Both the position numbers and the translations under genes were made by a program. From Bradyrhizobium ivorense (GTDB taxonomy: Bacteria > Pseudomonadota > Alphaproteobacteria > Rhizobiales > Xanthobacteraceae), in the NCBI RefSeq assembly GCF_900696085.1, contig NZ_CAADFC020000033.1:372001-436000 (forward strand): a stretch of DNA of 64,000 nt. Direction: 5' to 3'. Of this stretch, positions 7,722 to 50,529 are shown piece after piece; the stretch's first letter is position 1; each line of letters begins with the position of its first letter. The notes beneath the pieces were generated by a model. That model searched no databases. It had not been told where the DNA came from and was given only the letters and a program-made list of their open reading frames with translations.

Positions 7722-8828
7722 CTAGAACGACAGCGACGAGACGACCCGTACCTTCTGGCTCGGATCGAGCTTCTGCACGCCGAGCGTCACGACCCTGGCG
7801 CCCTCGTCGACGCCGCCGGCGATCACGACGTTGTCGCTCTCATAGCCCTTCACCTTGACCGGCTTCAGCGCGAGCTCGCCCTTGTCGTCGACGATGTAGA
7901 GCGAGGGATCGCCGCCCTGGCTGTACAGTGCCGACAGCGGCAGTTTTGCCACCCGCTCGCTGGCCTTGTCGGCCAAGGTCAGCGTCGCGGTCATGCCGAG
8001 CGAGACGGCCTCGTCGGCATCCGGCAGCGAGAACTTTGCGAGATAGGTGCGGGTGGCGGCATCGGCCTGCGGCGCGACCTCGCGCAGCTTCGCGGCATAG
8101 GTCTTCTTGGCGTCCGACCACAGCGTAACCGTGGCTACGCCCGACCTGGCACGAGCGAGAAGCGTCTCTGGGATCGCGACGACGGCTTCCTTCTCACCAA
8201 GTCGGGCGACACGGATCGAGGCCTGGCCCGCGGCAACCACCTGGCCGGGCTCGATCATGGTCGCGGTGACGACACCCTTCGTGTCGGCCACCAGCGTTGC
8301 GTAAGAGAGAGAATTCTTGGTCAGCTCGACCGAGCGCTCGGCGCGGTTCAGCCGGGCGCGGGCTTCATCGCCGGCGGCCTTGGCGGAATCGAGCTGGGCG
8401 TCGGTGGTCCAGCCCTTGGCCTTCAGATCCTTGGCGCGCTGCTCGGCGGCGGCGGCCTGCGCCAGCACGCCGGTGGCGGCGCGGAATTCGGCCTCGGCCT
8501 GCTCGGCCTGCAGCTTCAGATCGACCTCGTCGAGGGTGGCCAAGGGCTGATCGACGTCGACTGTCTGTCCGACCTCGACCAGCCGCTTGGCCACCTTGCC
8601 GGCAACCCGAAAGCCCATATCGGCTTCGATCCGGGGCTTGATCGTGCCAACAAAACTGCGCTCAGGGGTCTCGGCTTCGTAATGGACGGTCGCCACCAGA
8701 ACCGGGCGCCCGGGATCGGCCTTTTCGGCCGCCTTTTCGTTGCAGCCGGTCAGCGCGAACACCGCGAAAGCCAGCAGCGCTCCAGTCAAGAGCCTGTAAT
8801 AGCTCGAGAAAACGGAACGGACGAACAT
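7722..8828 (-). CDS. RND efflux periplasmic adaptor (membrane fusion protein), lipoprotein
   Basis: 368 residues. It links the inner-membrane pump to an outer-membrane channel. The N-terminus has a hydrophobic segment ending in the lipobox LTGC (Cys about residue 29), so it is probably a periplasmic lipoprotein. The HlyD-like order is clear: beta-barrel/lipoyl half (GFRVAGKVAKRLVEVGQTV), an alpha-hairpin coiled coil (LQAEQAEAEFRAATG onward), then the second lipoyl half (GVVTATMIEPGQVVAAGQ). GGAGAG precedes the ATG at 8828. It is the first gene of the adaptor-pump-TetR operon; 171 nt including a repeat separate it from the pump. Confidence 0.92.
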   Translation of the reverse strand: MFVRSVFSSYYRLLTGALLAFAVFALTGCNEKAAEKADPGRPVLVATVHYEAETPERSFVGTIKPRIEADMGFRVAGKVAKRLVEVGQTVDVDQPLATLDEVDLKLQAEQAEAEFRAATGVLAQAAAAEQRAKDLKAKGWTTDAQLDSAKAAGDEARARLNRAERSVELTKNSLSYATLVADTKGVVTATMIEPGQVVAAGQASIRVARLGEKEAVVAIPETLLARARSGVATVTLWSDAKKTYAAKLREVAPQADAATRTYLAKFSLPDADEAVSLGMTATLTLADKASERVAKLPLSALYSQGGDPSLYIVDDKGELALKPVKVKGYESDNVVIAGGVDEGARVVTLGVQKLDPSQKVRVVSSLSF

Positions 8829-8845
8829 CTGATCTCTCCATCGGG

Positions 8846-8906
8846 CTGACGACTGATGAAGAGTATCGATTTATCACTGACGAATGTCAATAATCGTCAC
8901 TGATAA
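8846..8906. promoter_or_regulatory. Operator region of the efflux operon
   Basis: Contains CTGACGACTG (8846-8855) and CTGACGAATG (8877-8886). The second lies in an inverted repeat: TTATCACTGACG (8871-8882) is mirrored by CGTCACTGATAA (8895-8906) with one mismatch and a 12-bp spacer. This lies 18-78 bp upstream of the adaptor start codon, where a TetR repressor would act. Confidence 0.5.
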
Positions 8907-9019
8907 CCAATTCGTGAGATTTGGGTGATTAACGGGTGATTCACCGTGTGGGCTGCCGTCGCCGGAAGGAGCCAAACGGATCGCGCGATGAGGTGCAGGA
9001 CCGGATGGGTAGCGCGAAC

Positions 9020-10345: not shown

Positions 10346-10477
10346 TGGTTTCCCCCCGGGCTATTGCTTGGCTTGAGGATTATTGGGTCACCCCGCATTG
10401 AGCAATGGCAAAATCTCATAGCTCACAGCGCCAAACGGGAACCGAGTGGGACAGCGATCGGCCGAACCGACCACCAC

Positions 10478-10557
10478 CGTCATTGCGAGCGGAGCGAAGC
10501 AATCCATGGCTCCGCATATGCGGCTCGATGGATTGCTTCGCTCCGCTCGCAACGACG
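10478..10557. repeat. Family B palindromic repeat, copy 3
   Basis: CGTCATTGCGAGCGGAGCGA at one end and CGCTCGCAACGACG at the other. It lies between the MFS gene and the YcaQ-like gene, and could act as a hairpin terminator. Confidence 0.85.
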
Positions 10558-10571
10558 GATAGAAGTGAGCC

Positions 10572-11735
10572 CTACTCCGCCAGCTGAAAGCGCTCGAAGC
10601 GGCCGAGTTCGTCCTCGATGCGGCGCTTCAGCTCCTTGCGCGCAGCTTGCTTCTTGCCGTTGCCGACCCAGGTCCATTTCTGCATCAAGAGCTTCTTGTT
10701 CTGGCGGTCGGTCTTGAGGTCGATGGCGGCGACGATGTCGTCGCCGACCAGCACCGGCAGGGCAAAATAGCCGAACACGCGCTTTTCTTTCGGCACATAG
10801 GCCTCGAAACGATGGCCGTAGCCGAAGAACAACTCGGTGCGCTTGCGCTGGATGATCAGGGGATCGAACGGCGACAGGATGTGGACCAGGCCCGGATCGG
10901 CATCGCCAACCTGCTCCAGCAGCTCCGGCCGAACCCAGTGCTCCTGCTTGCCGGCGCCCTCGAGCGCGAGCGGGATCAGCTCCTTGCGGCGGACGCGCGC
11001 CTCGATCAAGCGGCGCACCGCCTTCTTGCTCGGCGCATCGAGATGGCAGACCGAATCCAGGCTGACGACGCCCTGCGAACGCAGCGCGCGGTCGAGCAGA
11101 TAGGCCGTCTGCTCCGACGCCGACGCCGGCTTCGGCGGCTTGTCCCAGCCGAAATGCCGCGTCATCAGCTCATAGGTCTTGAGCATGCCGTTGCGCTCGC
11201 TGACCGTGGCGACGCCGCCGTAGAAGGCGAGCTGCAGCGCGCGCTTGGACGGCTTGCGGCTCTGCCACAGATGCTCCTTCTCGGTCAGCACGTCGTCGTC
11301 GATGTCGCGGATGGTGAGCGGGCCGGCGCGCAGCAGCCGCATGATCTTGCGGGTGTCGGCCGGCGTGACGGACGAATACCATTGATGACCGTCGCGCTTG
11401 TGCGCCTTCATCGCCGGCAGGAAGAAGCGAAAATCCTTCGACGGCACGTAGGACAGCGCGTGCGTCCAATACTCGAACACGCTCTTGTCGGTGCTCTGCG
11501 CCTGCTTGAGGTCGGCGCGGCGATAGTCCGGAATCCGCGAGAACAGGATGTGGTGATGGCAACGCTCGATCACGTTGATGGTGTCGATCTGCACATAGCC
11601 GAGATGGTCGACGGCATCAGCCACCGCCGACGCGCCCTCGGCGAACGGCGCTCTGGTATCGAGCCGCTGCGCGCGCAGCCAGATGCGGCGGGCGGCGGCA
11701 TTGCTCAACGGCTGGGGGTCGGCTCGGCGGGGCAT
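10572..11735 (-). CDS. Winged-helix DNA glycosylase-like protein (YcaQ/AlkZ family)
   Basis: 387 residues. Members of this family (HTH_42, YcaQ) unhook interstrand DNA crosslinks or remove bulky alkyl adducts. The stretch GYVQIDTINVIERCHHHILFSR carries the QID motif that matches the catalytic Q-hydrophobic-D of YcaQ. Repeated winged-helix segments follow, and HILSPFDPLIIQRKR near the C-terminus is also typical. The frame is open to 11873, but residue conservation begins near MPRRADPQPLS, so I place the start at 11735. The gene stands alone. Substrate range is inferred from the family. Confidence 0.82.
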   Translation of the reverse strand: MPRRADPQPLSNAAARRIWLRAQRLDTRAPFAEGASAVADAVDHLGYVQIDTINVIERCHHHILFSRIPDYRRADLKQAQSTDKSVFEYWTHALSYVPSKDFRFFLPAMKAHKRDGHQWYSSVTPADTRKIMRLLRAGPLTIRDIDDDVLTEKEHLWQSRKPSKRALQLAFYGGVATVSERNGMLKTYELMTRHFGWDKPPKPASASEQTAYLLDRALRSQGVVSLDSVCHLDAPSKKAVRRLIEARVRRKELIPLALEGAGKQEHWVRPELLEQVGDADPGLVHILSPFDPLIIQRKRTELFFGYGHRFEAYVPKEKRVFGYFALPVLVGDDIVAAIDLKTDRQNKKLLMQKWTWVGNGKKQAARKELKRRIEDELGRFERFQLAE

Positions 11736-46021: not shown

Positions 46022-46651
46022 TTACCTCTCCTTCGACCGCCGCAGGACACTGAACTGGAACGACTGCGTCGCGCCCCACGGCGTGACGTGTTGATGTGGC
46101 ACCTCGGCGATCAGCTCGAACGCCGGACCGATGGTCCGGCTCAGCGTCGCGGCATCATAGCGCTGCACCGGCAGCCCGCTGCATTTCTCCGGACCGTCGA
46201 GCGCGAACGTGGCGATGATGGCATGGCCGCCGGCCCGCACGCCGCGATGCAGCCGCTCGATATAGGCCTCGCGGTCGCGCGGCTCGACCAGGAAATGAAA
46301 CGCCGCGCGATCGTGCCAGACGTCGAACGGCTGCGGCGGCTGCCAGACGGTGGCATCGGCGGCGATCCACTGCACGGTGCTTGCAGCGGCGCCGACGCGC
46401 TCCCTCGCCCTGCGCAGCGCCGCCTCCGACAGATCGAGCACCGTCAGCGCATCAAATCCCCGTTCGAGCAGCGCATCGACGAGGCGCGACGCGCCACCGC
46501 CGATATCGACGATCGATGCGTGACGATCGGCAACGGCGCTTTCGATCAGGCGCAGCGACGGCTGCGGATCGGCCTGCGACCAGCTGACCTGCTGTTCGTT
46601 CTTTGTCTGATAGACGGTCTGCCAGTGCGATTGACGATCCGGGGCGGTCAT
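46022..46651 (-). CDS. Class I SAM-dependent methyltransferase
   Basis: 209 residues. SAM-binding motif I is IVDIGGGASRLVDALLERG, with later motif VLDLSEAAL and an acidic catalytic region near WHDRAAFHFLV. No target-specific domain was recognised. It is followed by the DOPA dioxygenase-family gene with a 6-nt gap, suggesting a link to a small phenolic molecule, though this is inference. The start at 46651 is the first conserved Met. Confidence 0.78.
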   Translation of the reverse strand: MTAPDRQSHWQTVYQTKNEQQVSWSQADPQPSLRLIESAVADRHASIVDIGGGASRLVDALLERGFDALTVLDLSEAALRRARERVGAAASTVQWIAADATVWQPPQPFDVWHDRAAFHFLVEPRDREAYIERLHRGVRAGGHAIIATFALDGPEKCSGLPVQRYDAATLSRTIGPAFELIAEVPHQHVTPWGATQSFQFSVLRRSKER

Positions 46652-46880
46652 GGCGATGGTCTTTGGCGATGTTCTTTGGCGATAAGCTCCAGCAGCAGGC
46701 GGTGGCGAGCAACCCGCGTCACGCGCCGGCTAGCCATGAGCTAGGCGCGGCGGCCTCGACCGTCAACCCGACGCAGGCCGCCGCCTGCATGCCGGCCTGC
46801 CGCGTTGCGGCAAATGCCGCATTTGCTTCGACGAAATTTCCATTTAACCTGACGGGAGGGTAGCGATCGGGGCGCTCGAT

Positions 46881-47594
46881 ATGGCCACTTTTGGCTGGAC
46901 ACGCGTCAACAAGCCTGATCCCGCGGAGGACGCCGCCGTCGACCTGCGCGGCCTCACCGATCCGTCGGCGTTGCTCACCGCGCTCGGCAAGGTGGTGCCG
47001 CGCTATCTCGATCTCGCCGACAACGGCGTGCTGGTCTATCCGGCCTGCAAGCGCAAGCCGACCGACCTGTTGGGCGACCTCCGCGCGATCTGGGAACACA
47101 CCCGGCTCGAGGCGATGCGCTACATCCCGATGGTGCCGCGGCAGGAAGCTGCGCTGCTGGTCGATCCGGCCCGCCAGGCCGAGATGATCGACGCCTTCCT
47201 GCGGCAACAGCCGCACGAAAATACGGTGGTCGATTTCACCGGCACCGCGATCGAGGATTACGGCATCGCGATCTACGCCGGGCTGAACTGGCTGAACCAT
47301 TGCGGCGCGGTCGCGGGCGCCGATCCGCAAAAATTCTCCGGCACGCTGCGCAGCTTTCGGCGGGTCATGGTCGTGGCCCGGCAATGGTGGGCGATCGACG
47401 GCGCGGCGGAGCGTTGCCGCCAACTGCTCGAGGCCCGCGAGCGGCCGCCGCTGGTGTTCTTCCTGCTGTGGGCCGAGTGCACCAATCTCGGCCGCGAAAT
47501 CGCACTCGCGGCCGCCGGCGCGAGCTTGCCGGAGGACGCGCTCGCGCGCGTACGGTCGGCGCTGGATCCGGAAGAGCTCGAGGCGAAGGGCTAG
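46881..47594 (+). CDS. Unrecognised protein, 237 residues
   Basis: I do not recognise the family. No signal peptide and no membrane helix of convincing length; the middle (about 120-190) is hydrophobic and tryptophan-rich (GLNWLNHCG, ARQWWAIDG, FLLWAECTNLG). The codon use fits the neighbours. The ATG at 46881 has only a weak ribosome site. The next gene, an actinobacterial-type DapD, begins 110 nt later on the same strand. The two could be unrelated. Confidence 0.5.
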   Translation: MATFGWTRVNKPDPAEDAAVDLRGLTDPSALLTALGKVVPRYLDLADNGVLVYPACKRKPTDLLGDLRAIWEHTRLEAMRYIPMVPRQEAALLVDPARQAEMIDAFLRQQPHENTVVDFTGTAIEDYGIAIYAGLNWLNHCGAVAGADPQKFSGTLRSFRRVMVVARQWWAIDGAAERCRQLLEARERPPLVFFLLWAECTNLGREIALAAAGASLPEDALARVRSALDPEELEAKG

Positions 47595-47704
47595 ACCCCG
47601 ACGGAAATGCCCCAAAGCAAACGCGTTTGAAAGTCCGGAAGTTGCCATGTCGACGAGAACTCGCGTATGCATGACGCGCAGGATCGTAACGTGAGACATT
47701 CAAA

Positions 47705-48676
47705 ATGGCGATGGAACTGAAGGGCGCGAGCGGCGAGGGATTTGCGACGATTGCCGCCGATGGTCGCGTGCTGGACTCCTGGTTTCTTCAGCCGCGCCTG
47801 GTTGCGGAGGCCGGCAAGGCCGCGACGGTCCGGCTGACGAGCGAGGAGATCATCGGATCGCTGGGTGAGTCAGCAGACGGATATGCGCGCCACGACGACA
47901 TCCGCAATGTCGAGATCGTTGCCATTCGCACGGAAATCGACTCCCTCGCATCCGCGCCGGCTGATGTGCACGACGCCTATCTCCGGCTCCATCTCCTGAG
48001 CCACCGGCTGGTCCAACCGAATTGCCTGAACCTTGACGGAATTTTCGGTCTGCTGCCGAACGTGGCCTGGACGACGCTCGGTCCCTGTGAAAGCTCTCGT
48101 GTACCGCAAGCGCGCATCGCAGCGCGCAAGCGTGGCCTCGCGTTCGAGGTGACCGGCGTGGACAAGTTTCCGCGCATGACGGACTATGTGACGCCCGCCG
48201 ACGTGCGCATTGCAGATGCGGATCGCGTCAGGCTCGGAGCCCATTTGGCGGCGGGCACGACCGTCATGCATGAGGGCTTTTGCAATTTCAATGCGGGTAC
48301 GCTCGGTCCCTGCATGGTCGAAGGCCGGATCAGCGCCGGCGTGGTCGTCGGAAGCGGCAGCGACATCGGCGGCGGAGCCTCGATCATGGGTACGCTGTCC
48401 GGAGGCGGCAAGGAGCGGATCACGGTTGGCGAGCGCTGCCTGATCGGAGCCAACGCCGGTATCGGCATTTCATTGGGTGACGATTGCATCGTCGAAGCGG
48501 GCTGTTACGTCACGGCAGGCGCGCGCATCCTTTTGCAAGATGGCCGAGTCCTGAAAGCCAAGGAACTCTCGGGCCAGAACGGCCTGCTGTTTCGTCGCAA
48601 TTCCCAGAGCGGCGCGCTGGAGGCGACCAGACGTAACCAGAATTGGGACGGCCTCAACGCGCAACTTCACGGCTAG
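47705..48676 (+). CDS. dapD: Tetrahydrodipicolinate N-succinyltransferase, actinobacterial type
   Basis: 323 residues. It closely matches the form of DapD found in Mycobacterium: SGEGFATIAADGRVLDSWF, DAYLRLHLLSHRLVQPN, GVDKFPRMTDYV, IADADRVRLGAHLAAGTTVMH, GRISAGVVVGSGSDIGGGAS and LLFRRNS. The left-handed beta-helix lies at about residues 170-300. It succinylates tetrahydrodipicolinate in lysine synthesis. The usual alphaproteobacterial DapD is shorter (about 280 residues) and of a different subtype, so this is probably an extra, horizontally gained gene. ATG at 47705; M3 is also possible. Confidence 0.85.
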   Translation: MAMELKGASGEGFATIAADGRVLDSWFLQPRLVAEAGKAATVRLTSEEIIGSLGESADGYARHDDIRNVEIVAIRTEIDSLASAPADVHDAYLRLHLLSHRLVQPNCLNLDGIFGLLPNVAWTTLGPCESSRVPQARIAARKRGLAFEVTGVDKFPRMTDYVTPADVRIADADRVRLGAHLAAGTTVMHEGFCNFNAGTLGPCMVEGRISAGVVVGSGSDIGGGASIMGTLSGGGKERITVGERCLIGANAGIGISLGDDCIVEAGCYVTAGARILLQDGRVLKAKELSGQNGLLFRRNSQSGALEATRRNQNWDGLNAQLHG

Positions 48677-48748
48677 GCCGCTCGATCGAAGAGGTCGGCG
48701 GCGACATGTGGCGCGCGATGTCACGTTGTGGCTTGGCGTGATCGCCGT

Positions 48749-49027
48749 TCACCACCAGTATGGCCAGCGCCACGCCTCATAACGGACCCACGACGACTCC
48801 AGCGGCGGACCGTATGGATCGACCCGGTCGTCTTCAGGGCGAAAACGATATCGTGGAACAACATTATAATCCCACGGAGTTGGCCTGATCACGGGCGTCG
48901 GGATGATAACCCGTCTTGGTTCATGAACGACTTGTACTTTCCGCGCCCGGGCTTCAGCACCGGACGTCCCGAGGTTGCACAGCACGAGGGCCGCTCCGAG
49001 AGCGCACGCGACGGTCATTTTCTTCAT
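48749..49027 (-). CDS. Small secreted protein, function unknown
   Basis: 92 residues. The first 25 residues are a Sec signal peptide (MKKMTVACALGAALVLCNLG). The mature part is basic and proline-rich with conserved aromatic residues (RFRPEDDRVDPYGPPLESSW, then WRWPYWW at the C-terminus). The start at 49027 has AAGGAGG about 7 nt upstream. I do not recognise a family. Confidence 0.7.
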   Translation of the reverse strand: MKKMTVACALGAALVLCNLGTSGAEARARKVQVVHEPRRVIIPTPVIRPTPWDYNVVPRYRFRPEDDRVDPYGPPLESSWVRYEAWRWPYWW

Positions 49028-49168
49028 GCATCGGCCTCCTTGCCTGAGAGTGCAAAAGGACTCGAAGCAAGACAAGCTAATTCTCGCTCGGGCAGACGGT
49101 GCACGGCAACAAATCATCGTGGCAAAGCATCATGTGTACGTCCGCTTCTGATCTGATCCCGCGCCGGT

Positions 49169-49486
49169 CTAGCCGCCCTGCTCGTTCTTTGCCGCGGGTT
49201 GCGCCGGCTTCTTGCCGCGGCGCAGGAAGGTGACGCCGATCTGATCGCCATTGACCCAGGCCAGCTTGCAGCGCCGGTAGGCAAGCCCTTTTGTCGAGAG
49301 CAGCAGGAAGAACTCTTTCAGTTGCAGGCCTTCGATCGAGGAGCCGACGATCAGCTTGGCGCCCTCCTCGGAGACGTCCTCGATCGCGCATTCACGGCGC
49401 CAGGTTCCGTCGATCGCCATCATTTGCGCAGGCATCGGCTTCTCGAACCTGACACGTGGAGTTGATCGTCGTTCGTGCGCTGGCAT
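49169..49486 (-). CDS. PilZ domain protein
   Basis: 105 residues. It has the two PilZ boxes: RRSTPRVRF near the N-terminus and DVSEEGAKL about 30 residues later, followed by a beta-barrel region. It probably binds cyclic di-GMP. The ATG at 49486 lies 4 nt after the stop codon of the upstream PilZ gene (49491), so the two are co-transcribed. The open frame to 49549 is not needed. Confidence 0.83.
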   Translation of the reverse strand: MPAHERRSTPRVRFEKPMPAQMMAIDGTWRRECAIEDVSEEGAKLIVGSSIEGLQLKEFFLLLSTKGLAYRRCKLAWVNGDQIGVTFLRRGKKPAQPAAKNEQGG

Positions 49487-49490
49487 CGTC

Positions 49491-50144
49491 TCAGGCGACC
49501 GTGTCCGCCGCGGCGGACACGGTCTGAAGCTCCTTGGTCTTGCGCGCAATCAGGCGCAGCAGGTCATTCTGCTTGTAGGTCTCGACGAACTTGATCGCGA
49601 AGCCGCTCGGAAGATGCCGGACCACGCGCCCGACGCAGGCGCCGATCGCCAGCGGCGTGCCGAGCGGCGGCTGCGCGGCGGAGGACACTGCGGCACCCGA
49701 CAGCGACATGTCGATGATGAAGCAGCTCTGCATGCTGCCGTCCGCCAGCGTCAGCATGGCGTGCGGCGCGGCGGGAATGAAGCGCGGGCTGTTGCGCGCG
49801 TCGCGGATGCTCGGATCCTTCTGCTTCTTCTCGATCCAGGTCAGCTTGTCCGCGAACTTCTCGCGCATCGCATGCGTCATCTCGAGCTCGTACAGGAAGC
49901 TGCCGCTCATGGTCTCGGTGATGCGGCCTTCGAACTTGCCGAACTCCTCGAAATAGGACGTCAGGCGGTCGCCGACCTTGCCGACCACGGGGACGTCCAC
50001 GATCATGCGGAACGGCGACACGCGCGTGGTGCGGCAGGCGAAGCTGCGCAATCGGCCCTGCGCGTCGTACCAGTTCGGCAACGTGTAGCTGCCGTCCACG
50101 GTGATCTTGACTGCGCGCTGCTTGAGGAACTTTTCGACAGACAC
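49491..50144 (-). CDS. PilZ domain protein with N-terminal extension
   Basis: 217 residues. The C-terminal PilZ domain has NSPRFIPAAPHAML (box 1) and DMSLSGAAVSS (box 2), so cyclic di-GMP binding is likely. The N-terminal half (residues 1-110) has no motif I recognise and may be another barrel-like domain, possibly YcgR-like. The start is GTG at 50144; an ATG at 50270 is open but precedes the conserved region. A second PilZ gene follows immediately. Confidence 0.8.
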   Translation of the reverse strand: MSVEKFLKQRAVKITVDGSYTLPNWYDAQGRLRSFACRTTRVSPFRMIVDVPVVGKVGDRLTSYFEEFGKFEGRITETMSGSFLYELEMTHAMREKFADKLTWIEKKQKDPSIRDARNSPRFIPAAPHAMLTLADGSMQSCFIIDMSLSGAAVSSAAQPPLGTPLAIGACVGRVVRHLPSGFAIKFVETYKQNDLLRLIARKTKELQTVSAAADTVA

Positions 50145-50529
50145 AACTGGACCCTCGCCTGAGGCGATGAGAGTGCATGGGGTCGGGGATTGACCGGCTC
50201 CCTTGCCGGTCCGGCGGTAAGGACGTCCGTGACCGACGCGAATGCAGCAGGAAGGAGAGCAGTGCGGCACGCGTCCCAGCGCGTCGCGGGCTCGTCCTGG
50301 CGCGCAGGTACGTACAGGCGTACCGTCGAAAAACTAAGAAAGGCTGAATCGGACAGGGAGCGGGCGACGCACTGTATGGCCGAACCCTTTCCGATTGGTT
50401 TATTTTGCGAGCCGTACAACTACCGGAGGAAACATCGCGCAGCGATGCAATCGTGGCGCGCTGTAAACCGCCTGCCTCGTCTTCCGAACGGATGCTACTT
50501 TGGTCCGAAACCAGATTTGGAACCCGCGC
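50145..50529. other. Divergent intergenic region, PilZ pair and crotonase
   Basis: No convincing gene. It contains two hairpins: GACCGGC-TCCCTT-GCCGGTC (50192-50211) and GGTACG-TACAGG-CGTACC (50307-50324). Both lie in the leader of the PilZ operon. No further signal was recognised. Confidence 0.5.

Follow-up and report, generated by a model that had tools for sequence, protein, structure and literature searches.

dapD2, a solitary gene in the 64,000-nucleotide stretch of Bradyrhizobium ivorense DNA analysed here (the window), most probably encodes a horizontally gained isozyme of the native tetrahydrodipicolinate N-succinyltransferase (DapD), a spare able to take over the step of that enzyme. 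The evidence read from sequence comprises the subtype of the protein, the presence of a second dapD in the same genome, the retained active-site residues, purifying selection, the many genomic sites, the weak agreement with housekeeping genes and two deletions of native dapD.

Table 1. Coordinates of dapD2, its flanks and neighbours (window positions), and of native dapD (contig position)
Feature	Position	Strand	Description	Basis
dapD2	47705..48676	+	type A, actinobacterial-type tetrahydrodipicolinate N-succinyltransferase, 323 aa	TIGR03535, PF14789, PF14602, PDB 3fsx, codon usage
Codons E206-G207-R208 of dapD2	48320..48328	+	identical in 17/17 aligned sequences	
Conserved upstream block of dapD2	47600..47704	+	about 105 bp, travels with the gene	
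Conserved downstream block of dapD2	48677..48736	+	about 60 bp, weaker than the upstream block	
237-aa protein, upstream neighbour	46881..47594	+	no Pfam or NCBIfam match; outside the dapD2 unit	
122-aa protein, downstream neighbour	48749..49117	-	no family match	
Native dapD	G000:C5:161062-161883			TIGR00965

Two DapD subtypes in one genome

The dapD2 frame runs from ATG to TAG over 323 codons and fills its interval exactly. The protein matches the NCBIfam model of the actinobacterial subtype, TIGR03535 (DapD_actino), over residues 7-322 of 323 with 459.5 bits (E 5e-138), which exceeds the curated cut-off of 441.5 bits. It scores 348 bits with the model of the gammaproteobacterial subtype, TIGR03536, below the cut-off of 518, and 31.7 bits with another DapD model, NF008808, below the cut-off of 204. 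PF14789 and PF14602 are its Pfam matches, and the best solved relative is the DapD chain 3fsx (E 3e-115), which is the Mycobacterium tuberculosis enzyme according to the available excerpt of PMC3281039. On these scores, dapD2 is a full-length member of the actinobacterial DapD subtype. The sequence-only reading had described a 323-residue protein of mycobacterial type along its whole length, and this description is borne out; all four of the motifs it quoted, including GVDKFPRM and LLFRRNS, occur in the translation. The TIGR03535 subtype is the usual DapD of Actinobacteria. The term "actinobacterial-type" holds for family membership but not for a purely actinobacterial occurrence, since members or relatives occur as well in Limnohabitans, a Comamonadaceae bin, Paraburkholderia, Aminobacter and Rhizobium. 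Matches to dapD2 in named Bradyrhizobium records show 89-92% identity.

The genome of the window (9.41 Mb, 44 contigs) contains one TIGR03535 gene, dapD2, and one TIGR00965 gene, native dapD, which is the sole TIGR00965 match and lies on contig C5; dapD2 is not a member of that family. Native dapD is surrounded, by NCBIfam and Pfam assignment, by yidC, engB (here the YihA/YsxC GTPase), argB and a hypothetical gene on one side and by a DUF805 gene, dapE, truA, fmt and def on the other. The two proteins have no significant pairwise similarity (E 0.066), in agreement with the earlier statement that alphaproteobacterial DapD is usually a different subtype. A search for a native dapD with dapE had been proposed, and both were found in the yidC-engB-argB-dapD-dapE setting. 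The two findings named as fatal to the idea of a foreign second copy did not appear: dapD2 lies outside the DapD subtype usual in Alphaproteobacteria, and the genome has another dapD. The native enzyme and dapD2 have the predicted reaction in common, whereas native dapD has conserved surroundings and is near-universal in the genus (189/195). A repeat of about 100-300 bp lies between native dapD and the DUF805 gene (about 10413-10737 of locus L122) and is found at dozens of places in this genome and its relatives.

The codon usage of dapD2 is the most atypical (lowest score) of the 49 script-called genes in the window. Its GC3 is 0.746, compared with a median of 0.865 and with 0.936 for native dapD, whose codon usage is typical of the genome. 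The atypical codons of dapD2 suggest modest expression.

Residue roles were mapped through Pseudomonas aeruginosa DapD (3r5a) as described in the excerpted text of PMC3281039, in which Glu221 and Arg223 contact succinate and aminopimelate. In dapD2, E206 and R208 are the equivalents, read by eye from an alignment of structural relatives. The substrate and catalytic residues E206, R208, G223, S226 and N194 and the CoA contacts K284, R297, R298 and S300 are conserved in all three aligned type-A rows (type A being the lineage of dapD2). Two arginines of the far carboxylate were left out of the comparison because the numbering in that excerpt did not map cleanly. C193 and C267 were considered as a proteobacterial signature and dropped, as they are also present in some Actinobacteria. 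dapD2 is predicted to be a catalytically standard DapD. It would convert tetrahydrodipicolinate and succinyl-CoA to N-succinyl-2-amino-6-oxopimelate and would form a homotrimeric left-handed beta-helix, like its relatives in the available part of PMC3281039. With M. tuberculosis DapD (3fsx/3fsy, TIGR03535), dapD2 shares whole-length homology and active-site residues; unlike that enzyme, it is encoded in an alphaproteobacterium by a second gene that stands alone and changes place. With P. aeruginosa DapD, as far as it is described in the same excerpt, the fold family and ligand contacts are held in common, and that enzyme is a proteobacterial member of the wider subtype; dapD2 is set apart from the gammaproteobacterial type both by the TIGR03536 score given above and by a tree in which the gammaproteobacterial-type rows split off at 100/100.

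Distribution, genomic sites and spread of dapD2

Strong TIGR03535 matches (>390 bits) are found in 46 of 195 Bradyrhizobium genomes, and every carrier has a single actinobacterial-type copy; among the matches listed, the others in the genus reach at most 27.3 bits. Apart from the own genome, no strong TIGR03535 match was found in 149 family genomes, where other matches reach at most 37.9 bits, or in 249 order genomes (E <= 1e-40). At 1e-40, 47 of 398 phylum genomes match TIGR03535; besides the own genome, only G781 lies above the cut-off, with a copy that groups with Limnohabitans, and the other 45 score 372-398 bits. Among 72,556 plasmid records, 14 hold relatives of dapD2 at 48-67% identity. 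No relative was found in IMG/VR, and three phage records match dapD2, of which MT835995 covers 98% of the protein at 56% identity.

Three Bradyrhizobium lineages are seen in the trees. Type A, the lineage of the window, accounts for 42 of the 46 carriers of the genus sample (43 copies with genome G950). Type B (G183, G152, G145) falls together with a copy from an Aminobacter plasmid. Type C (G121) falls together with a copy from a Pantoea plasmid, in the quick tree only and on long branches. The quick tree contained every third actinobacterial row, with identical proteins and L156 left out. The careful tree was built from 43 chosen rows, without type C and R. leguminosarum, and separates 38 rows (among them all actinobacterial rows and type A) from 5 gammaproteobacterial-type rows at 100/100. 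The phylogeny proposed as a check thus places type A with the actinobacterial rows and apart from the gammaproteobacterial subtype. A group supported at 92/94, which is not firm, unites type A, type B with Aminobacter, Limnohabitans with other Burkholderiales, two Paraburkholderia and one Embleya. The actinobacterial-type family therefore already circulates in Proteobacteria, and the trees show no direct actinobacterial donor of type A.

The 237-aa neighbour, at 77% identity or more, marks 25 genomes as the window's part of the genus; type A is present in 19 of these, type B in two and type C in one, and three have none of the types. The three types never occur together in one genome (47 carriers). 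The chance that all three type B or C carriers fall among the six genomes without type A is 0.009 if genomes are independent, which they are not, and the mutual exclusion of the types is weak.

Relatives of the gene were also observed in other settings. The type-C gene of G121 (L136, 9639-10556, minus strand) lies between unrelated genes and has changes at G223 and K284. Its type-B counterpart on Aminobacter aminovorans plasmid pAA02 (L185, 9995-10972) has IS3- and IS21-family transposase genes 4-9 kb upstream, a possible vehicle of type B. On Rhizobium leguminosarum plasmid p3, typed as conjugative, a diverged relative (L187, 9971-10954; 49%) is changed at H189, E190, N196 and S300, and two short frames annotated as pyridoxal-dependent decarboxylase are nearby. 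In Limnohabitans (L050, around 8001-8960), an actinobacterial-type DapD gene stands between unrelated genes, its neighbours encoding acrylyl-CoA reductase, PhoD, a DUF4143 ATPase and acetoacetate-CoA ligase. On Pantoea agglomerans plasmid pPA-MXU-125 (L188, 6766-14573), a DapD-like gene belongs to a same-strand run that also encodes an octopine/nopaline-dehydrogenase-family protein, a phytanoyl-CoA dioxygenase-family protein, an SDR, an ATP-grasp protein, an MFS protein and a LysE transporter; these annotations give the run the look of a small gene cluster for a peptide metabolite. Annotations of one Klebsiella plasmid and of two further Pantoea plasmids contain DapD-SDR pairs of a similar kind.

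The 43 type-A copies occupy 28-30 neighbourhoods, depending on which of four criteria is applied; six of the 43 have less than 8 kb on one side, two of them (G109, G042) less than 500 bp, which may slightly raise this count. No gene of any kind is common to all type-A sites. As a control, yidC, engB and argB lie within one stretch in 67 of 67 native dapD loci, and all seven flanking genes are together in 61 of 67, where presence within one stretch and not gene order was scored. Six loci are exceptions: at least three are cut short by an early end of the stretch or contig, and G188 and G111 are without truA, fmt and def within 17 kb. At the window's site, the 237-aa gene lies on a different contig or far from dapD2 in other carriers, and the 122-aa gene adjoins dapD2 in the window and in G010 and lies elsewhere in seven other type-A carriers compared. 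The 237-aa gene and, on the PilZ side, the stretch 49457-50300 form the outer flanks of the window's site; they are separated by 30 bp in G010, by 1.6 kb in G003 and by 7.5 kb in G004, with no dapD2 between them in these genomes. The claim that no lysine gene is nearby agrees with the scan of seven neighbour proteins, none of which matches a lysine family and two of which match nothing. A secondary-metabolite cluster at dapD2 was considered and rejected: the seven scanned neighbours are unrelated or familyless, and neighbours differ between sites.

Short flanks travel with the gene. Mean pairwise identity is 0.70-0.85 over the last 75 bp upstream, similar to that of the third codon positions of dapD2 (0.76), and falls to 0.22-0.37 beyond -105; conservation peaks at about 47660-47674, ctcgcgtatgcatga. 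Downstream it is 0.47-0.57 to +60 and then 0.20-0.26. These values come from 27 of 29 site representatives, G161 and G078 having been left out for an unrecognisable upstream block. Matches between copy pairs end within 231 bp upstream and within 166 bp downstream (25 site representatives). The moving unit would be a solitary segment of about 1.1 kb, consisting of the upstream region, dapD2 and a short 3' block. The upstream block is presumably a promoter and ribosome-binding region, and dapD2 would be expressed from it. A strict sigma-70 scan found no promoter in 47600..47704, a terminator scan none in 48677..48736, and an Rfam scan of 46500-49500 no element, such as a lysine riboswitch, at gathering score. 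The upstream block has no match in the plasmid records. No transposase, integrase or repeat ends travel with dapD2 in the 25 site representatives. The ends of the unit were also tried as dispersed repeats and discarded as such, with three matches away from dapD2, to the ends of two copies, in 2.19 Mb of Bradyrhizobium DNA. The unit may have moved by ordinary recombination of transferred DNA and not by its own recombinase.

dapD2 and seven housekeeping genes were compared by their third-position differences in 37 of the 43 type-A carriers, with a rank correlation of 0.16. Over 500 label permutations the mean was 0.002 and the maximum 0.26, so that the observed value does not exceed all of them; some agreement between dapD2 and the housekeeping genes remains, and it is weak. 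Differences between the window's clade and all other carriers are 0.291 for housekeeping genes and 0.260 for dapD2. For pairs inside the window's clade, the dapD2 value is 0.221 versus 0.176 for housekeeping genes, and for pairs among the other carriers 0.283 versus 0.213. The extreme pair, G116-G102, differs by 0.087 in dapD2 and by 0.307 in housekeeping genes. Repeated transfer of dapD2 inside Bradyrhizobium is the simplest reading of these comparisons. Vertical inheritance also occurs, because some groups that share a site (e.g. G004, G108, G119) have close dapD2 sequences. These findings suggest that dapD2 was acquired horizontally and then spread between Bradyrhizobium lineages. The earlier proposal of a horizontally gained second DapD is supported by the native dapD on C5, the atypical codons of dapD2 and its patchy presence in the genus.

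Selection on dapD2 and loss of native dapD

Over 861 pairs of 42 type-A genes, dapD2 has a median dN/dS of 0.123, and by this ratio it is under purifying selection. The value falls among those of six core genes (0.09-0.22): it is slightly higher than in argB and def (0.086-0.104) and lower than in dapE, truA and engB (0.15-0.22) and in native dapD. Full-length copies of 320-323 codons are found in 42 of 43 type-A cases; in the remaining G128 copy, the first 25 residues are not recognisable. The dN/dS of native dapD is 0.220 in carriers and 0.178 in other genomes. Relaxed selection on native dapD in carriers was rejected as a specific effect, as the dN/dS of argB rises too (0.104 in carriers versus 0.086 in others).

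With absence judged at a threshold of E <= 1e-60, native dapD is present in 239 of 243 genus genomes that are at least 95% complete and is missing in G003, G950, G049 and G194. In G003, yidC, engB and argB remain, together with the hypothetical gene, dapE, truA, fmt and def, but native dapD and the greater part of the DUF805 gene have disappeared; 21 bp are left between the matching parts. G950 keeps the same genes and DUF805, and native dapD is absent; a repeated palindrome-like sequence was noticed by eye at the place of its loss. Both loci are continuous and free of N, and no remnant of native dapD was found in them, the best chance matches having E 0.003 for DNA and 0.079 for protein. Both genomes have an intact type-A dapD2 of 91-92% identity. 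The two losses look independent because G003 and G950 belong to separate large clades of the species tree, from which G049, G149 and G072 were left out (over half gaps), in which the non-carriers were hand-picked, and whose set does not include the native loci of G157, G150 and G025. Of the other two genomes, G049 has dapD2 and its contig ends before the dapD position, and G194 is without native dapD and dapD2, with the dapE region also missing. In the sample of 195 genomes, G090, G100 and G164 (72-87% complete) are without both genes as well. In the carrier G139, native dapD is in two frames (L328, 6707-7626), which is either a pseudogene or a sequencing error.

The DapD step is essential, and DapE acts on a product made after DapD. 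The retention of dapE without native dapD therefore implies that another DapD is present; none but dapD2 was seen. The chance that both clear losers are carriers is about 0.06 (46/195 squared), so that the argument for replacement rests on the essentiality of the step more than on counts. From these two natural losses, we infer that dapD2 has N-succinyltransferase activity.

Function of dapD2 as a probable spare

The preferred reading is that dapD2 would serve as a spare where both genes are present and, where native dapD has been lost, would carry the step alone and feed the retained native dapE. It would then suffice for the supply of meso-DAP and lysine. Ordinary DapD function is indicated because the two relatives without native dapD keep only dapD2. 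Of the readings for why roughly one in four sampled genomes of the genus keeps a spare, a benefit in gene dosage or regulation is the dullest and bypass of an inhibited target the boldest.

Such a bypass is unlikely. Here dapD2 would be a mobile means of self-protection, through which lysine and DAP synthesis continues when an antimetabolite from the plant, the rhizosphere or a competitor inhibits native DapD. The solitary, mobile and patchy gene and its lack of sequence relationship to the native enzyme are consistent with this, and the mutual exclusion of types A, B and C looks as if they fill one role. DapD-like genes in dipeptide clusters, as in the case of TabB (PMC3927611) and of the Pantoea plasmid gene, suggest that aminopimelate-type antimetabolites exist. 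However, no resistance gene is among the seven scanned neighbours, and patchy transfer would also be expected of a nearly neutral spare, though the low dN/dS argues against neutrality. We know of no inhibitor of native DapD.

A specialised role, which the sequence-only reading had suggested in the form of a secondary metabolite or variant cell wall, is improbable. In this case dapD2, as proposed for TabB, would supply the synthesis of a secondary metabolite or modified wall with an aminopimelate intermediate that is succinylated or cyclic. DapD-like proteins do occur in such clusters: TabB is thought to act in tabtoxin synthesis, according to the excerpt available from PMC3927611, and a DapD relative is found on a Pantoea plasmid, in an operon that also encodes an ATP-grasp protein, an oxygenase, an octopine-dehydrogenase-family protein and exporters. 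The grouping of the type-C copy with the Pantoea copy in the quick tree points the same way, but of the nine frames scanned around the G121 copy, some have no match and the others encode unrelated families, among them ribonucleotide reductase, aspartate decarboxylase and GapR. TabB and the Pantoea protein resemble dapD2 as DapD-like enzymes encoded outside lysine operons. They differ in that the TabB and Pantoea genes belong to multi-gene clusters, whereas type-A sites have no companion gene in common. The Pantoea and G121 copies are changed at the conserved positions G223 and K284, whereas type A keeps all the active-site residues compared. In addition, native dapD was lost twice where type A is present. 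The ordinary role is thus preferred to the specialised one, which may exist in addition, with no cluster, a standard active site and two relatives that keep only dapD2.

It is very improbable that dapD2 is a selfish or neutral passenger kept by frequent transfer alone and doing nothing that the host needs, for although different sites, weak agreement with housekeeping genes and atypical codon usage would fit, its dN/dS of 0.12 lies within the core-gene range, 42 of 43 copies are full-length, two hosts appear dependent on it and no mobility gene is common to its sites.

In the paper collection searched, none joins tetrahydrodipicolinate N-succinyltransferase with Bradyrhizobium. The foreign replacement of an essential gene is usually inferred only afterwards; here one genus shows the stages together, with genomes that have no spare, genomes that have the spare and the native gene, and genomes in which the native gene is deleted and the spare stands alone. 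dapD2 also illustrates clearly how one metabolic gene on its own spreads with no mobility machinery in sight. In rhizobia that carry the spare, a knockout of native dapD may give no phenotype.
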